Source: Cloacibacillus porcorum (GTDB lineage Bacteria; Synergistota; Synergistia; Synergistales; Synergistaceae). Taken from it: 64,000 bases of DNA. Positions 12,565-20,155 of the stretch are shown here, piece after piece; the first letter of the stretch is position 1; each line of letters opens with the position of its first letter. The notes beneath the pieces were generated by a model. The model made no database searches. It had not been told where the DNA came from and was given only the letters and a program-made list of their open reading frames with translations. The stretch covers positions 124,001 to 188,000 of the forward strand of contig NZ_CP016757.1 of NCBI RefSeq assembly GCF_001701045.1, written 5' to 3'. The translations under genes and the position numbers were made by a program.

Positions 12565-13923
12565 TCAGTCGCGCAGCGCCCGGTGCGGAGAGTTTTTTCT
12601 TGAATAGAGGCTATGCGTGCAGCGGATCATGTAATAGACCACCGCGGCGGAGACCAGCAGTTCGGTGATGGGCATCGCGAGCCAGAGGGCCCGGGCTCCC
12701 GCGGCGGCGGGCAGAAAGAGGATCAGCAAACCGCTGACGAGCATACCGCGCGAGACGGAGACGAAGAAAGATATCTCCGGCCGCATCAGGGACTGGAAGT
12801 AATAGGTGGAGAAGATATTCAGCGGCAGCAGCAGGAACGAAAGGCCGTAGCAGCGGATGATGAAGGGCGCTATCGAGAGCACCATCTCCGTCGGGGCCAT
12901 GAAGATACGGATAAATCCGTTGGGAAAGGCCAGCGCCGCGGCGGTCCAGGCGATGCTGAAAAAGGCCGCCGTCGCGAGGGCGTACCGCAGCGTGGCCCTG
13001 ATGCGCCTCCACCTTCCCGCGCCGAAATTTATCGAGATTATCGGCTGCGACGCCTGTCCGATGCTGTAGGCGCAGCACTGGACGACCGTGCTGATGTTGA
13101 CGATCACGCCGTAGACGGCCAGCGCCTCCGTGCCGGAGTAGCGCATGATCTGGCGGTTGAAAAGCACCGTCAGTATCCCCATCGCGATATCGATGAAGAA
13201 GGTTGAAAAGCCGGTGACGGTGATCTTCCGCAGCTTTATGAGCAGGTTTCGCGGCCTCACCAGCCGCAGCGTATTCCTCTTCGAGAAAAAGTGGCCCAGC
13301 ATCGCCGCGAGGGTGAGCGCAGCCCCGATCGCCGTCGCGAGCCCCGCCCCCATGATGCCCATATCCAGGGTAAAGACGAAAAAATAATCTCCCGCGACGT
13401 TGAAAAGCCCGCCGAAGAGCACCGCGGCGGTGGCAAGCCCCGGGCTGCCGTCGTTGCGCAGGAAGGCGGCCAGCATCTGGTTGAAGATGAATACCGGCAC
13501 GGCGAACTTCACCGGCCACAGGTACTGCCGCGCAAGCGGCAAAAGCGTCTCGTCCGCGCCGAAGAGCAGGAGCATCCGCCTATCGAAAAAAACGATAGCC
13601 GCCCAGCTGAGGGCTGAGAAAATCACCGTTCCGATAAATGCCGCCGAGAAATAATCGTTCGCGCCGCTCCCACCCGTGCCGCCCTGTCCCCTGGCGACGC
13701 TGAACAGCACGCCGCCGCCGATCCCCGCGAGCAGCCCGAGGCTGTAGATGATATTCCAGACGGGCGCGACGACGGCCAGCGCCGCCGTGCCGTCGGGCCC
13801 CTGGTACTGGCCGACGATCGCCATGTCCACGATGCCGTAAATCGAGCTGATCATCGCACTGCCGAAGGCCGCTCCGAGATATCTGAAATATATGGCGCTG
13901 ATCCTGCCGCGCAGTAAATCCAT
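12565..13923 (-). CDS. MATE-family multidrug/cation antiporter
   Basis: About 452 aa with around 12 hydrophobic segments in two homologous halves, as in MATE exporters (Na+- or H+-coupled drug efflux). The early segment FGSAMISSIYGIVDMAIVGQ and the VAPVWNIIYSLGLLAGIGGG block are family-typical. GAGGAGG precedes two tandem ATGs at 13926 and 13923; the second has better spacing. The leader contains a small ORF and a terminator that together suggest induced anti-termination. The transported compound cannot be predicted. Confidence 0.93.
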   Translation of the reverse strand: MDLLRGRISAIYFRYLGAAFGSAMISSIYGIVDMAIVGQYQGPDGTAALAVVAPVWNIIYSLGLLAGIGGGVLFSVARGQGGTGGSGANDYFSAAFIGTVIFSALSWAAIVFFDRRMLLLFGADETLLPLARQYLWPVKFAVPVFIFNQMLAAFLRNDGSPGLATAAVLFGGLFNVAGDYFFVFTLDMGIMGAGLATAIGAALTLAAMLGHFFSKRNTLRLVRPRNLLIKLRKITVTGFSTFFIDIAMGILTVLFNRQIMRYSGTEALAVYGVIVNISTVVQCCAYSIGQASQPIISINFGAGRWRRIRATLRYALATAAFFSIAWTAAALAFPNGFIRIFMAPTEMVLSIAPFIIRCYGLSFLLLPLNIFSTYYFQSLMRPEISFFVSVSRGMLVSGLLILFLPAAAGARALWLAMPITELLVSAAVVYYMIRCTHSLYSRKNSPHRALRD

Positions 13924-13945
13924 CATAATCCTCCTCAAAAACAAA

Positions 13946-13993
13946 GAGCCGGATAAGAGAACAGGCGTCTCAGCCTGTCACCTTATCCGGCTC
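13946..13993 (-). terminator. leader terminator/attenuator of the MATE gene
   Basis: On the minus strand a 12-bp perfect stem (GAGCCGGATAAG with CTTATCCGGCTC) encloses a second short stem (ACAGGC/GCCTGT) and is followed directly by TTTGTTTTTTG, then the MATE SD and start. It is a rho-independent terminator inside the 5' leader, so it should gate transcription of the exporter. Confidence 0.8.
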
Positions 13994-14031
13994 GTCATTT
14001 CCAATGAATGATTCGCCCTCCGAGTGAGCAT
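13978..14031 (-). CDS. possible leader peptide of the MATE gene
   Basis: A 17-codon ORF (MLTRRANHSLEMTSRIR, then TGA) ends inside the left arm of the leader terminator. A ribosome paused on its last codons would cover that arm and let transcription continue into the MATE gene. The ATG sits almost at the expected transcription start, so translation might be leaderless; a second possibility is TTG at codon 10, preceded by GGAGGG. There is no independent evidence of translation. Confidence 0.45.
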   Translation of the reverse strand: MLTRRANHSLEMTSRIR

Positions 14032-14036
14032 TGAAG

Positions 14037-14065
14037 TTTATAACATCAAAGGGCGGAAATATCAA
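14037..14065 (-). promoter_or_regulatory. sigma70-type promoter of the MATE leader
   Basis: On the minus strand TTGATA and TATAAA are separated by 17 bases, close to the sigma70 consensus. The TATAAA ends five bases before the leader ORF ATG, so the transcript would begin at or next to that codon. Confidence 0.6.
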
Positions 14066-14356: not shown

Positions 14357-15823
14357 ATGAAAGATTTGCTGAAACTGACGCCAATTTGCGTGATCGCGGG
14401 CCTTATGCTATCGGGAATGGACATCCTTATCGCCGCGCCGCTCTCTTTTATGTATGCCTCTATCGTAGCTATGGCGGTGGATCATTACAAATTCCAGGAA
14501 CTTGTGGACGCCGCTCTTGACAACCTTAAGCACTTTCTTATCGTGTTTCTTATTCTGGAGCTGGCCTACGCCGTCGCCGAATGCTTCATGTCCACCGGCG
14601 TGGCCGCATCCGTAATCAACATGTCGCTCGCCGCTGGCCTTGACGCGCGTACCATCGCAGTCGTCGCCTTCCTGCTGACCTGCGTGCTTTCCACGGCTAC
14701 TGGCACCTCCTGGGGCACCTTCGCCGCCTGCGCGCCGATCTTCCTATGGCTTAACCATATCGTCGGCGGCAATATATTGCTCACGATCGGGGCGATCGCC
14801 GGAGGCTCCTGCTTCGGCGACAACATCGGGCTTATCTCGGATACGACGATCGTCAGCTCCGGCATCCAGCAGGTCGAGGTCATCAAGCGTGTGCGCCATC
14901 AGGGCGTCTGGTCGCTGCTCTGTCTCGTCAGCGGCGCGATAGTGTTTTATGTCGCCTCGCTGGGATTCTCCGGCGAAGCGGCGCAGGCCGCGGACGCCAT
15001 CTCTCAGATCCCAGCCGACGTGTGGCAGAAGCTTGGCGAGGAACGTCCTTCGGCCGTAACGCTGCTTGAGCTTGTCAAGACTGGCGTCCCCTATTACATG
15101 GTCATTCCCCTCATCATCGTCATCGCGACCGCGGTCATGGGCTACAGCACTCTCATCTGCCTGGGCTCCGGTATCTTCTTCTCGCTGGTATTTGGGCTGA
15201 TCTCCGGCACCGTGACGAGCCTTAACGCGTTCTTCGAGGTAGTTTACACCGGTTTCTCGGACGCGGGCGGCTGGTCCATCGCGATGATGCTCTGGGTAGG
15301 GGCCTTCGGCGGCGTTATGCGTAAGATGAACGCCTTTGACCCGATAGCCGTCCTGATCGCGCGTATGGTGCATAAGGTACGCCACCTGATGTTCGCGAAT
15401 TCGGTACTATGCCTGCTCGGCAACGCCGCCCTTTCCGATGAAATGGCGCAGATTGTTACCATCGGCCCGATTATCAAAAACATTACGGAGGAAAATGTCG
15501 TTGGCTCCAAGGAGGATATGTACACGCTGGCTCTGAGAAACGCCACCTTCTCGGACGCGATGGGAGTTCTCGGCTCGCAGCTCATCCCGTGGCACTGCTA
15601 TATGGGATTTTTCCTCGGCATCAGCGCCTCCGTCTATCCGCTGGCCTCCGGCATCACTGCGGGCGACATCATCTCGCACAACTACTTCTCGATGATCGCC
15701 GTAGCCTCCATGCTGATCCTCACCTTCACCGGCTGGGACCGCTATATCCCGCTCTTCAAACTACCCACGGAGCCCAAAGTCTATCTGAAAAGCGAAGCGG
15801 CGCAGTTCGAAGGCAAAGAATAA
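14357..15823 (+). CDS. NhaC-family Na+/H+ antiporter-like carrier (copy 1)
   Basis: 488-aa membrane protein of the NhaC ion-transporter family. The motifs TGTSWGTFAACAPIF and CFGDNIGLISDTTI are the family signatures. The family includes Na+/H+ antiporters but also substrate exchangers such as malate/lactate antiporters, so the cargo is open. A paralogue of the same layout lies at 39719-41209, inside an amino-acid operon, which makes an organic-anion or amino-acid role reasonable for both. The gene stands alone and is closed by a strong terminator. Confidence 0.92.
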   Translation: MKDLLKLTPICVIAGLMLSGMDILIAAPLSFMYASIVAMAVDHYKFQELVDAALDNLKHFLIVFLILELAYAVAECFMSTGVAASVINMSLAAGLDARTIAVVAFLLTCVLSTATGTSWGTFAACAPIFLWLNHIVGGNILLTIGAIAGGSCFGDNIGLISDTTIVSSGIQQVEVIKRVRHQGVWSLLCLVSGAIVFYVASLGFSGEAAQAADAISQIPADVWQKLGEERPSAVTLLELVKTGVPYYMVIPLIIVIATAVMGYSTLICLGSGIFFSLVFGLISGTVTSLNAFFEVVYTGFSDAGGWSIAMMLWVGAFGGVMRKMNAFDPIAVLIARMVHKVRHLMFANSVLCLLGNAALSDEMAQIVTIGPIIKNITEENVVGSKEDMYTLALRNATFSDAMGVLGSQLIPWHCYMGFFLGISASVYPLASGITAGDIISHNYFSMIAVASMLILTFTGWDRYIPLFKLPTEPKVYLKSEAAQFEGKE

Positions 15824-15874
15824 TAATATTAACAGGCGCGGTTCCGGAACCGCCGCGCCTTTAATATAAACAGG

Positions 15875-15925
15875 GGACTCCCCCCTGCCGGCAATGCCTC
15901 GCCGGCAGGGGGAGTCCTTTTTTGC
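15875..15925 (+). terminator. rho-independent terminator after NhaC carrier
   Basis: A long stem (GACTCCCCC...TGCCGGC with GCCGGCAGGGGGAGTC) is followed by CTTTTTT. A smaller hairpin (GGCGCGG/CCGCGCC) precedes it at 15834-15859. Confidence 0.9.
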
Positions 15926-16042: not shown

Positions 16043-16085
16043 TATATCAATGAGATTTTTAAGATATGCCAAGGAGGAAACGGAT

Positions 16086-16610
16086 ATGAAAAAGATCATC
16101 AGTTTAGCCGCGATCGCGGCGGTTGCGCTCTCTCTGGGGATGGCGGCGGTCTCGGCGGATGCCGCGAAGCTGATCGGCGAGGCGCGGGCGAAGGAGATAG
16201 CGCTGAAACATGCCGGCGTAGCGCCGCAGCAGGCCCAGTTCACAAAGATGAAGCTCGACAAGAAGTACAGCCACACGGAGTATGAGCTGAAATTCTATGT
16301 CGGCGGCACGGAGTATGAGTACGACATAAACGCGGAGACGGGCGAGGTGCTCAAATTCTCTCGTGAGGTGAAGAATCACGGCGCGCCGCAGAACGCGGGA
16401 AACGCGGGGCTGATCGGCGAGGCGAAGGCCAGAGGCATCGCCCTGTCGCGGGTACCCGGCGCGAAGGAGAGCGACATCCGAAAGTTCAAGCTCGACCATG
16501 ACGACGGCAGACAGGTCTACGAGGGCGAGATTTTTTACAATATGAGAGAGTATGAGTTCAAGATCGACGCCAAGAGCGGCGAAGTGGTCAAGTGGGAGAT
16601 CGACGGCTAG
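16086..16610 (+). CDS. secreted protein with two PepSY domains
   Basis: 174 aa, ATG at 16086 after AAGGAGG. Residues 1-25 form a signal peptide ending near VSADA. Two PepSY-like repeats follow, each starting with LIGEA(R/K)A and ending with a YE(Y/F)-I-(N/D)A-GEV segment. PepSY domains are thought to inhibit proteases or sense the envelope. Such genes often sit next to, and are controlled by, an OmpR-type two-component system, exactly as here. A hairpin follows at 16623-16647. No enzymatic activity is expected. Confidence 0.88.
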   Translation: MKKIISLAAIAAVALSLGMAAVSADAAKLIGEARAKEIALKHAGVAPQQAQFTKMKLDKKYSHTEYELKFYVGGTEYEYDINAETGEVLKFSREVKNHGAPQNAGNAGLIGEAKARGIALSRVPGAKESDIRKFKLDHDDGRQVYEGEIFYNMREYEFKIDAKSGEVVKWEIDG

Positions 16611-16673: not shown

Positions 16674-17313
16674 TTTTTTATGAAGATACTTGTCGCGGAG
16701 GACGAACGGGATCTGAACCGCCTGATCGCCAAGTCTCTCGAAGAGGCGGGGCATTGTGTGGACCGCTGCTGCGACGGCGGCGAAGCGCTGGATTTTATCC
16801 GTGCCTCGGAATATGACGCGGTAGTGCTCGACGTGATGATGCCCGTAATGAGCGGGCATGAGGTCGTCAGCCGGATGCGCGCGGAGGGCAGCGCCGTGCC
16901 GGTGCTCTTTCTGACCGCCCTTGACGGCGTCGACGACCGGGTCAAAGGGCTTGACCTCGGGGCCGATGATTATTTGATAAAACCCTTTGCCTTTCCAGAG
17001 CTGCTGGCCCGCCTGCGGGCGATCACGCGCAAGTACGCGGAGACGAAGAGCACGCTGCTGAGGGTTGGCGGGCTGGTTCTTGATACGGCTTCGCATCGGG
17101 TGTCGCGCGACGGCAGGGAGCTCTCCCTCTCGGCGAAGGAGTTTGCCGTTCTTGAGTTTATGATGAGAAACAGCGGCGTGGTGCTCTCGCGCGAGCGGAT
17201 CGAAAATAATGTCTGGAGCTATGGTTACGAGGGCGGCTCGAATGTCGTCGACGTCTATATAAGCTATCTGCGGAAAAAGATTGACGACGGCTTTGAAAAG
17301 AAGCTGCTCCACA

Positions 17314-17316
17314 CGG
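17314..17316. repeat. target-site duplication, left copy (CGG)
   Basis: CGG directly before the IS left end is repeated at 18766-18768 directly after the right end. A 3-bp duplication fits IS3-family transposition. Confidence 0.8.
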
Positions 17317-17341
17317 TGAACAGAGTCCCGCAAACCGGACA
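17317..17341 (+). repeat. IS terminal inverted repeat, left
   Basis: Begins TGAACAGAGTCCCG and ends GGACA. It matches the reverse complement of the right end at about 20 of 25 positions. Confidence 0.85.
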
Positions 17342-17373
17342 ACGCTATAAAAGCTCCCAAGGGTATCAAAAAT

Positions 17374-18246
17374 TTATTCAATAAAGAGACTTCGATATTG
17401 CATCGGAGCCTTTTTCAATTTTATCTGTATCCTGTCGTTATTATAATACCTTATATATTCGTCTATGGCATCTTTGGCCTCCTCGTAGTTCTCCCATTTT
17501 ACTCGGTTGACGAGTTCTGATTTAATGTGACTAAAGAAGTTTTCTGCACATGCATTATCCAAACAATTTCCTTTCCTTGACATTGAGACCTTGAGTCCGT
17601 ATCTTTGTGTCAGGTTGAAATATGCATGGCTTGTATATTGAAACCCCTGGTCGCTGTGGAGGATTGGTCCATCAGCGACCACCTTATTATTATTTTCAAA
17701 TGCTTTCTTCAATGTATCGGTTACTAACTTAATATTATTATTACGACTGATTTGATATCCCTGTATGGAATTATCAAAGAGATCTTTTATCATGGAGAGG
17801 AATATATTACCCTTTTTTGTTCGTATATATGTGATATCAGTAACCAGTTTCTGGTTTGGTCTGTCGGAACGAAATTCTCTGTTCAGGATATTCTCATAGC
17901 TGTGGATATTTCCTGACATCACTTTAAACTTTTTCTTTTTTCTTATTTCCGCTTGAAGTCCCGCTTTTTTCATAACACGCCTTACCCTCTTATTGTTTAC
18001 ATGAATGCCAATGAAGTTGTTGAGCCACAGAGTCATTCGCCTGTACCCATAAGTGTTTTTGTTGATATTCTGTCCCGTTCTTATTGCTTCTATGAGAGGA
18101 CCGTCTTTATCTTTCATTCCACGCCGCTTTAGCCAACTGTAGTATGCGGAGCGTGATACGGACAAAAATCTACACATTCCACAGACAGAATGTTTTGTTG
18201 AAAATTCAAAAATGATCCTGTATTTAATATTTCTTTCTATCACCAC
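17374..18246 (-). CDS. IS3-family transposase OrfB (DDE integrase)
   Basis: 290 aa in frame from a GTG at 18246, but it is normally made as the C-terminal part of a frameshifted OrfAB. The rve integrase core shows the DDE triad: Asp in VTDITYI, Asp in ILHSDQGFQY and Glu in NACAENFFSHIKSE. The N-terminal GMCRFLSVSRSAYYSWLKR segment is the usual HTH_21-type region. Catalytic residues are intact, so the element may be active. Confidence 0.95.
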   Translation of the reverse strand: MVIERNIKYRIIFEFSTKHSVCGMCRFLSVSRSAYYSWLKRRGMKDKDGPLIEAIRTGQNINKNTYGYRRMTLWLNNFIGIHVNNKRVRRVMKKAGLQAEIRKKKKFKVMSGNIHSYENILNREFRSDRPNQKLVTDITYIRTKKGNIFLSMIKDLFDNSIQGYQISRNNNIKLVTDTLKKAFENNNKVVADGPILHSDQGFQYTSHAYFNLTQRYGLKVSMSRKGNCLDNACAENFFSHIKSELVNRVKWENYEEAKDAIDEYIRYYNNDRIQIKLKKAPMQYRSLFIE

Positions 18247-18683
18247 CTTTGCAGCTCTAAGGCTTTTTTTAATACGTCGACCTGCATTTCCAGCTCTTTA
18301 ATCTTTTCTATGCTATTTGTAACTTCCAATTTCTTATCTGGACAGTCTTGTTTTGAACTAGAAATATCCCCTTGTTCGATAAATTCCTTACACCATCGTC
18401 TTAAAAGAGAGGGACTTGAAATGTTAAAAGATGAGGTAACATCTACCATAGTACGTCCCTCTTCTAAATGAGCCGAAACAGCTTCAAGTTTTACAGCCTT
18501 GCTGTAGGTTCTTTTTTTCCTTGTATCATCCAGTAAGTCCTTCTGTCCGCTCTTATATAAAGATATCCATGTTTTAATAGAATCAGGACTAACACCAAGT
18601 TCTTCAGCAATCCGCCTTCGTGGAATTCCCTGTTTGTGCATCTCAATTGCTCTTATTCTTTCTTCCGTTTTACGTTTACGCAT
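18240..18683 (-). CDS. IS3-family transposase OrfA (helix-turn-helix)
   Basis: 147 aa. Two helix-turn-helix blocks are visible (RRRIAEELGVSPDSIKTWI near residue 25 and a second near residue 85), followed by a leucine-zipper-like coiled coil (IEKIKELEMQVDVLKKALEL) used for multimerisation. OrfA binds the element ends. It overlaps OrfB by 7 bases in a different frame, as in IS150-like elements. Confidence 0.93.
   Translation of the reverse strand: MRKRKTEERIRAIEMHKQGIPRRRIAEELGVSPDSIKTWISLYKSGQKDLLDDTRKKRTYSKAVKLEAVSAHLEEGRTMVDVTSSFNISSPSLLRRWCKEFIEQGDISSSKQDCPDKKLEVTNSIEKIKELEMQVDVLKKALELQRW
18264..18270 (-). other. programmed -1 frameshift site of the IS
   Basis: On the minus strand seven A's followed by G (A-AAA-AAA-G) lie near the end of orfA. 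The -1 frame is open from there into orfB, which would yield the OrfAB fusion transposase. Confidence 0.65.
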
Positions 18684-18765: not shown

Positions 18766-18802
18766 CGGTGTGGGGCTCCGGCTGGATGCTGAAAGCGCCG
18801 GA

Positions 18803-20155
18803 ATGAGGAATCTTTCGGTCAAGGCGCGCGTCACCATATGGTTCACGCTCCTGATGCTGCTGATCACGGCGGCCTCGCTGGGCTTTGTCATCACGGTGGG
18901 CGGCTCCATGATGGAGAGTTATTCTCTGACACGCCTCGCGGAGATGGTGAACGACAACGCGGATGAGCTCCGCTACGGTAAAAAGGGCCTTGAGGTTGAC
19001 GATGATTTCGAGCCGTACGCGGGCGGCGCCTATACCCTGATCTATGACGAAGCGGGCACGCTGCTTTACGGACGCGTGCCCGCTGGCTTTAATCCGCGCG
19101 AACCTTTTCTTGAGGGCGAGCCCTACCTAGTCGGCAGCAGCGGCGGAGATTTTTACCTCTACGACCGGCGGGCGGAGGGCGGCAGGCTGTGGCTGCGGGG
19201 AGTGCTCCCCCTGTCGGCGGCCGGCGGTTTCCCGCTCGTCGCCGCACGGCTCGCCTTTTTTATCCTGCCGCTGCTCGTCCTGCTTGCCGCCGCCGGGGGT
19301 TATCTGATCGCCAGACGCGCCTTTCGCCCGATAGATAAGATCGTCGCGGCGGCGGACGCGATCAGCGAAGGACGCGACCTCTCGGCGCGTATCGGCCTGC
19401 CGCCGCGCGGCGATGAGATACACCGGATCGCCTCGTCGTTCGACAATATGTTCAGGCGGCTCGAGGCCTCTTTTGAGGCGGAGAAGCAGTTCGCCTCCGA
19501 CGCCTCCCATGAGCTGCGCACGCCGACGGCGGTCATCCTCGCGCAGTGTGAGTCGCTTGAGAGAGGGGAACGCACGGCGGCGGAATACGCGGAGGGGATT
19601 GCGGCGATCAGGCGGCAGGCGCTCAAGATGTCAAAGCTCATCGGCGCGCTGCTTCAGATAACGCGCCTCGAACAGGGGACGGTCAAAGCCTCTTTCGAGC
19701 GCGCGGATCTGAGCGAACTTGTCGGCGTCGTCTGCCGCGAGTCCCGGCTCCTCTGGAGGGAGGCCGTGTTGGAGACGGAAATCGAAGAGGGGATATTCGC
19801 GGATATCGATGTGGCGCTCATGTCAAGGCTGACCGGCAATCTTCTGGAAAACGCCTTCAAATACGGCGGCGGATTGGTACGCGTCTCGCTTCACCGGGAG
19901 CATGAGAGGGTAATACTCTCCGTATCCGACAACGGCGAGGGCATCCCTCCCGCCGAGCTGGAAAAGATCTGGAACCGCTTCTACCGCCTTGAAAAATCGC
20001 GTTCCGGCGGCGGTCTGGGCCTCGGACTGGCGCTGGTGCGGCAGATCGCCGACATTCACGGCGCGCGGGTGACGGCGGAGAGCGGCGCGGAGGGCACCGT
20101 TTTCACGCTGCTGCTGCCGGTAAAATCCCAGGGATCAGAGCCATTCAAAGTCTAA
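18803..20155 (+). CDS. sensor histidine kinase (OmpR-system partner)
   Basis: About 450 aa. The ATG at 18803 overlapped the original regulator stop codon (ATGA), so the two genes were translationally coupled before the IS inserted. Layout: membrane helix near residues 10-35, a periplasmic sensor of about 110 residues, a second helix near 150-170, HAMP, then HisKA with the phospho-His in SDASHELRTP, N-box NLLENAFKYGGG, G1 DNGEGIP and G2 GLGLGLAL. All catalytic boxes are intact, so the kinase itself appears functional. It now sits behind an element transcribed the other way and may be poorly expressed. Confidence 0.92.
   Translation: MRNLSVKARVTIWFTLLMLLITAASLGFVITVGGSMMESYSLTRLAEMVNDNADELRYGKKGLEVDDDFEPYAGGAYTLIYDEAGTLLYGRVPAGFNPREPFLEGEPYLVGSSGGDFYLYDRRAEGGRLWLRGVLPLSAAGGFPLVAARLAFFILPLLVLLAAAGGYLIARRAFRPIDKIVAAADAISEGRDLSARIGLPPRGDEIHRIASSFDNMFRRLEASFEAEKQFASDASHELRTPTAVILAQCESLERGERTAAEYAEGIAAIRRQALKMSKLIGALLQITRLEQGTVKASFERADLSELVGVVCRESRLLWREAVLETEIEEGIFADIDVALMSRLTGNLLENAFKYGGGLVRVSLHREHERVILSVSDNGEGIPPAELEKIWNRFYRLEKSRSGGGLGLGLALVRQIADIHGARVTAESGAEGTVFTLLLPVKSQGSEPFKV

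Follow-up and report, generated by a model that had tools for sequence, protein, structure and literature searches.

A conserved leader RNA with mutually exclusive aptamer-like and terminator folds precedes MATE exporter genes and is an apparently undescribed candidate riboswitch class

The window, that is, the whole stretch of 64,000 nucleotides analyzed from the 3.59 Mb genome of Cloacibacillus porcorum, encodes a MATE-family efflux transporter behind a short leader (Table 1). A preliminary description of this DNA had placed a promoter, a 17-codon open reading frame (ORF) and a rho-independent terminator, in that order, ahead of the exporter. All of these are present and lie, like the exporter itself, on the minus strand, which the description had not stated. 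The promoter (TTGATA-N17-TATAAA) carries 10 of the 12 consensus bases with a 17-nt spacer, and its predicted +1 falls at about 14031. It is absent from the scanner's list because the scanner demands T as the last −10 base. The ORF (MLTRRANHSLEMTSRIR) spans 14031-13981 and ends with a TGA codon at 13980-13978. As had been claimed, its ATG sits about where +1 is expected, and its last codons make up the left arm of the terminator. The terminator arms form 12 pairs with an inner hairpin between them, and TTTGTTTTT (13945-13937) follows directly after the 3′ arm. By homology the exporter starts at 13923, or alternatively at an ATG at 13926.

Table 1. Features of the exporter locus, with positions in the window.
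Feature	Position	Strand	Basis
−35 element, TTGATA	14060..14065	minus	sequence
−10 element, TATAAA	14037..14042	minus	sequence; position kept across leaders
17-codon ORF (ATG ... TGA), judged fortuitous	13978..14031	minus	ACG replaces ATG in L009 and L038; ORF not conserved
P1 (closes the proposed aptamer), 5′ strand, UCACUC	14022..14027	minus	covariation
Core internal loop, 5′ side, GGAGG	14017..14021	minus	GGAGG in 85/88
P2 hairpin, GC/GC base then UCAUU/AAUGA, UUC..GAAA apex	13990..14016	minus	double-sided changes at every P2 pair
Core internal loop, 3′ side, CGGAUAA (YGGAUAA), also in terminator 5′ arm	13983..13989	minus	YGGAUAA in 85/88
P1 3′ strand, GGUGA	13978..13982	minus	covariation
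Intrinsic terminator, 5′ arm GAGCCGGAUAAG (13993-13982), 3′ arm CUUAUCCGGCUC (13957-13946)	13946..13993	minus	folding, covariation
D2 hairpin, CAGGC-UGAGAC-GCCUG, GNRA (GAGA) tetraloop; apical part of the terminator	13962..13977	minus	covariation
U-rich tail, UUUGUUUUU	13937..13945	minus	sequence
Shine-Dalgarno sequence of the exporter, GAGGAGG	13930..13936	minus	sequence
MATE-family efflux transporter, 452 aa	12565..13926	minus	PF01554, E 9e-29; NCBIfam MATE models

Upstream of the leader, positions 14357-15912 hold a divergent gene of the NhaC-type Na+/H+ antiporter family (TIGR00931, PF03553; under the NhaC cut-off) with a strong terminator after it (15881-15912). A small secreted-looking protein is encoded at 16050-16610, just before a two-component regulator. 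It has two similar repeats (LIGEARAKEIAL / LIGEAKARGIAL) and is PepSY-like by eye. Between the OmpR-type response regulator (16680-17384) and its histidine kinase (18770-20155) lies a pair of IS3-type transposase genes on the minus strand (17374-18683). At its C-terminus (HTVNRVPQTGQRYKSSQGYQKFIQ) the response regulator appears to depart from the usual RGxGY ending, a change that would fit truncation by the IS3 insertion.

The leader belongs to a conserved RNA motif that precedes homologous MATE genes in at least 70 of 82 cases, spread over three phyla. A simple motif pattern matched 74 of the 82 upstream regions, of which one or two are doubtful (L090, L081), and a covariance model added more. 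Among the hosts are Synergistaceae, many Lachnospiraceae and further Bacillota (Erysipelotrichaceae, Oscillospiraceae, Enterococcus, Amphibacillus), as well as the spirochaetes Brachyspira, Brucepastera and one more. From 5′ to 3′, the motif consists of a closing stem (P1), an internal loop (GGAGG/YGGAUAA), a hairpin (P2), a GNRA-capped hairpin (D2) and a terminator whose 5′ arm reads GAGCYGGAUAAG; CUUAUCCRGC and then U's follow 3′ of D2. The apex of P2 is of the UUC..GAAA type in 70 of 88 sequences, and the D2 loop is a GNRA tetraloop in 72 of 88 (GAAA 37, GAGA 29, GGAA 5, GCAA 1). The letters of P1 vary, being UCAC/GUGA in the window and UUGC/GCAA, CAUC/GAUG or UUAUC/GAUAG elsewhere. In 85 leaders a −10-like element ends typically 14-15 nt upstream of GGAGG, which places the transcript start at the RNA motif itself.

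This comparison bears directly on the ribosome-sensing attenuation that had been proposed for the leader, in which antibiotic-induced stalling of a ribosome within the 17-codon ORF would prevent the terminator from forming. The ORF does terminate inside the left terminator arm, and the downstream gene is a drug-type exporter. However, in the two nearest relatives (L009 and L038; MATE proteins 84% and 79% identical) the leader is almost identical, yet the ATG is replaced by ACG. The codon at this position is ATG in 7 of 88 leaders, and a Shine-Dalgarno-like motif precedes any ORF in only 19 of 88. ORFs of at least eight codons occur by chance in many frames of these leaders. The P2 loop differs in length by single bases among relatives, which shifts the reading frame, and in L074 it carries an insertion of about 40 nt. 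A leader-peptide attenuator is marked by a conserved translated ORF with a start signal, whereas across the 88 leaders no start, Shine-Dalgarno sequence, frame or peptide is kept, and the conserved bases instead build covarying stems. Moreover, because +1 falls at the motif, a Shine-Dalgarno sequence would have no room. The preliminary description had itself named a conserved RNA fold with unconserved codons as the outcome that would speak against its reading, and this is the pattern that leader conservation across the MATE homologs displays. Sensing by the ribosome is therefore unsupported and exceedingly improbable. The other half of the attenuation proposal, a terminator controlling the exporter, is well supported, as this terminator covaries and overlaps a competing conserved fold.

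Covariation is found in both folds. All 17 modelled aptamer pairs are changed on both sides, and 93.1% of cells pair in the 88 sequences. Double-changed cells number 192 as against 49 ± 11 in shuffled controls, none of 500 shuffles attains any of the five measures used, and the signal vanishes when the pairing partners are slid. The terminator, D2 and P2 likewise covary. Many pairs in the alignment used (A3) were set by a model that includes P1, so this stem was retested in two other ways. On a sequence-only MAFFT alignment, P1 retains 20 double-changed cells, compared with 4.1 ± 3.8 in shuffles (0/500). In an alignment-free test, each 5′ strand was hybridized with its own 3′ strand or with that of another sequence. 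Own strands hybridize at −3.25 kcal/mol and shuffled ones at −1.98 (sd 0.18; 0/2000). An early reading of UCAC/GUGA as a pseudoknot was dropped for a nested closing stem after divergent and tandem forms were compared. The 5′ strand of P1 also has an alternative partner, GYRA just after GGAGG, with which it pairs in 85% of cells. This pairing may represent a hairpin of the resting state, which leaves some doubt about how the 5′ part is folded at rest. The motif shows a hallmark of riboswitches, a conserved core enclosed by covarying stems in distantly related bacteria of three phyla.

A plain terminator conserved by chance, or a mobile terminator-like repeat, with no sensing role, would be another account of the leader. 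Coreless GCYGGAUAAG terminators do occur before unrelated genes (L125, L170, L173). Against this account, the covariance model finds a single full copy in the C. porcorum genome, and P1, P2 and the core, all upstream, equal the terminator in conservation and covary independently of it, making such an explanation barely credible. Two further candidate copies in the same genome (L120, L125) were rejected as ordinary terminators.

The two folds share a strand. As is typical of riboswitches, one segment, GAGCYGGAUAAG, is common to aptamer and terminator. YGGAUAAG, which forms the 3′ side of the core, makes up the central part of the left terminator arm, so the two structures exclude each other. 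The leader folds at −46.1 kcal/mol, compared with −27.0 ± 3.2 for shuffled sequences (z = −6.0). When the nascent RNA is folded at increasing lengths, P1, core and P2 together are the predicted minimum-energy fold at 56-76 nt. The inner stem of the terminator is predicted to begin at 80 nt and the terminator to form from 84 nt, energies that leave out tertiary structure. Any factor stabilizing P1 and the core past that point would prevent termination, which is why an ON riboswitch is proposed.

The leader thus probably acts in cis as a regulatory RNA, a ligand-ON riboswitch candidate of an apparently undescribed class, and controls the MATE exporter via the terminator. Transcription would begin at or just ahead of P1. 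The first ~55 nt would then fold into the aptamer, with P1 (UCAC/GUGA type) closing the GGAGG/YGGAUAA loop and P2 as the cap. As the polymerase advances, the 3′ arm CUUAUCCGGCUC would invade the structure and pull GAGCCGGAUAAG out of the aptamer to form the terminator, so that the exporter stays off unless this is prevented. If a compound occupied the internal loop, P1 and the core would remain joined beyond the decision point and the terminator would not form. Read-through into the exporter gene would follow, and the inducing compound would be removed. We infer that a small ligand is bound, that binding turns expression on and that the exporter expels this ligand or a related compound.

Protein-mediated antitermination offers another way to use the same folds. 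In BglG/LicT and ANTAR systems a protein-bound element overlaps the 5′ arm of a terminator. The present leader shares this architecture, and its purine-rich internal loop could bind a protein, so that an RNA-binding protein might hold P1, core and P2 and block the terminator in the same manner. However, no antiterminator-type domain occurs among the window neighbors examined (an RpiR-type HTH/SIS protein), and, within the reach of the Rfam models, ANTAR and BglG-type RNA targets have consensus features other than the GGAGG/YGGAUAA motif. The spread over three phyla, several transporter families and tandem copies fits ligand aptamers better, and a protein partner is unlikely.

Riboswitches that control terminators before exporters are a well-known kind of regulator. 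The present RNA is, as far as Rfam and the searched literature reach, apparently undescribed. None of the 4227 families of Rfam 15 matched the leader at the gathering score, and the matches at relaxed thresholds were dismissed as chance, microRNA-like hits only. Rfam 15 also missed a guanidine-IV-type leader (L180), so its silence on the MATE leader is weak evidence. Among the papers searched, none describes a MATE-linked orphan motif like the GGAGG/YGGAUAA RNA.

The nearest described RNAs to be considered are the guanidine-IV riboswitch (also GGAM-1 or mepA leader) and Gd4v, an orphan variant of it. Guanidine-IV is reported from Firmicutes, Spirochaetes and Synergistetes and from leaders of MATE genes (PMC7736828). 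It is, like the window RNA, a small conserved RNA that acts as a terminator switch before exporters, in overlapping phyla (PMC7736828). Gd4v is gut-enriched, counts MATE genes among its targets, adds a hairpin to its terminator, as the window leader does, and was probed using a Cloacibacillus RNA (PMC9788692). Membership in either class was in fact the first identification made, prompted by published work and by the CAC/GUG pairing, and was rejected because guanidine-IV-type SugE leaders differ and no model match was obtained. In guanidine-IV a loop pseudoknot (ACC/GGU) links two hairpins, whose invariant loop letters include a G and a U conserved at 97% (PMC7736828). The window RNA instead has a closing stem, the GGAGG/YGGAUAA internal loop and P2, and its letters vary where those of guanidine-IV are invariant. 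The position that would correspond to the 97%-conserved U carries this letter in no more than 30 of the 88 leaders, and the published hallmark of the class, two kissing hairpins whose second loop has G, U and G conserved at 97%, is not shown by this RNA.

Four Lactobacillales SugE leaders (L178, L180, L188 and L202) serve as a contrast. They carry an ACCGGG hairpin (UACCGGGUA-type) and a terminator loop with AGGUCUUUG, a layout that fits the kissing pairs (A29-U72, C30-G71) and the invariably retained G77 published for guanidine-IV (PMC11611296). Judging by this layout, we infer that they are guanidine-IV leaders. They have nothing in common with the GGAGG/YGGAUAA core, and the covariance model R2 gives no match to L180. 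Gd4v is described as extremely similar to guanidine-IV in sequence and structure and as lying mostly before transaminases (PMC9788692). The window RNA class lacks both traits: near-identity to guanidine-IV is absent, as judged through the guanidine-IV comparison, and no transaminase, the main Gd4v target, appears among the downstream genes examined. A loose Gd4v-like pattern has 30 matches in the C. porcorum genome as against 7 for the reversed pattern, and those viewed resemble scattered chance sequence. Despite the shared phyla and MATE targets, membership in guanidine-IV or Gd4v is very unlikely.

The exporter targets suggest that the ligand of the proposed riboswitch is likely a compound harmful inside the cell, as with yjdF or a Clostridioides difficile FMN variant. 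The yjdF (azaaromatic) RNAs are thought to switch an exporter on in response to toxic planar compounds (PMC7266159), but they are a different RNA, and the window leader has no Rfam match. A subtype-2 variant of the FMN riboswitch in C. difficile senses lumichrome and lumiflavin and, ahead of a drug-type efflux gene, switches expression on through a terminator (PMC11477304). Unlike the window leader, which has no RFN match, this variant derives from the large RFN aptamer. Among MATE proteins, YeeO is cited as exporting flavins in Escherichia coli (in PMC12934955).

The core of the leader resembles an artificial RNA. The in-vitro selected FMN aptamer has the internal loop AGGAUAU/AGAAGG, and the window core, YGGAUAA/GGAGG, corresponds to it with the strand order swapped, although one core base is different and one extra A is present. 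That the core is convergent with this aptamer and senses a flavin, a product of flavin breakdown (lumichrome, for instance) or a different planar aromatic molecule, which the MATE exporters of gut bacteria would expel, is a speculative and improbable reading. If it were true, tandem aptamers would make the response cooperative.

Should the riboswitch interpretation hold, an apparently undescribed RNA sensor would directly govern a family of drug-type exporters in common gut bacteria. The identity of the ligand would reveal substrates of MATE pumps, which are beyond the reach of sequence alone. The small (~55 nt), simple aptamer and compact terminator would also be useful for engineering.

Copies of the motif occur in 3 of 61 sampled genomes of the same order and in 56 of 299 Lachnospiraceae genomes (~19%), a frequency that marks it as not essential. 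Among 398 broadly drawn Bacillota genomes three matched, one being the search center itself and another (L206) a plain hairpin that lacks the core. A MATE gene lies downstream at 42 of 57 Lachnospiraceae sites, and several MATE subfamilies are represented. Other targets include single cases of an MFS drug-type transporter (L207, from the phylum sample) and a CitMHS permease (L158). A few weak model matches are probably plain terminators. In two Lactobacillales leaders (L170, L173), coreless terminators with the same GCUGGAUAAG / AGACUGGGUAAA arm precede ketopantoate-reductase-like genes. Upstream of the match in Brachyspira (L101), the terminator is kept while GGAGG and P2 are lost, a natural loss of the proposed sensor.

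A group of mouse-gut Lachnospiraceae (among them L044, L053, L059, L062, L063, L097 and L116) has tandem aptamers that share a single terminator, an arrangement that would provide a direct test case for cooperative RNA sensing. In six of these leaders (L053, L044, L059, L063, L097 and L116), the first P1 is UUAUC/GAUAG and the second CGGUUU/AAACCG. The second aptamer copy of L105 has a degenerate core (GGAGG / GAAUAA).
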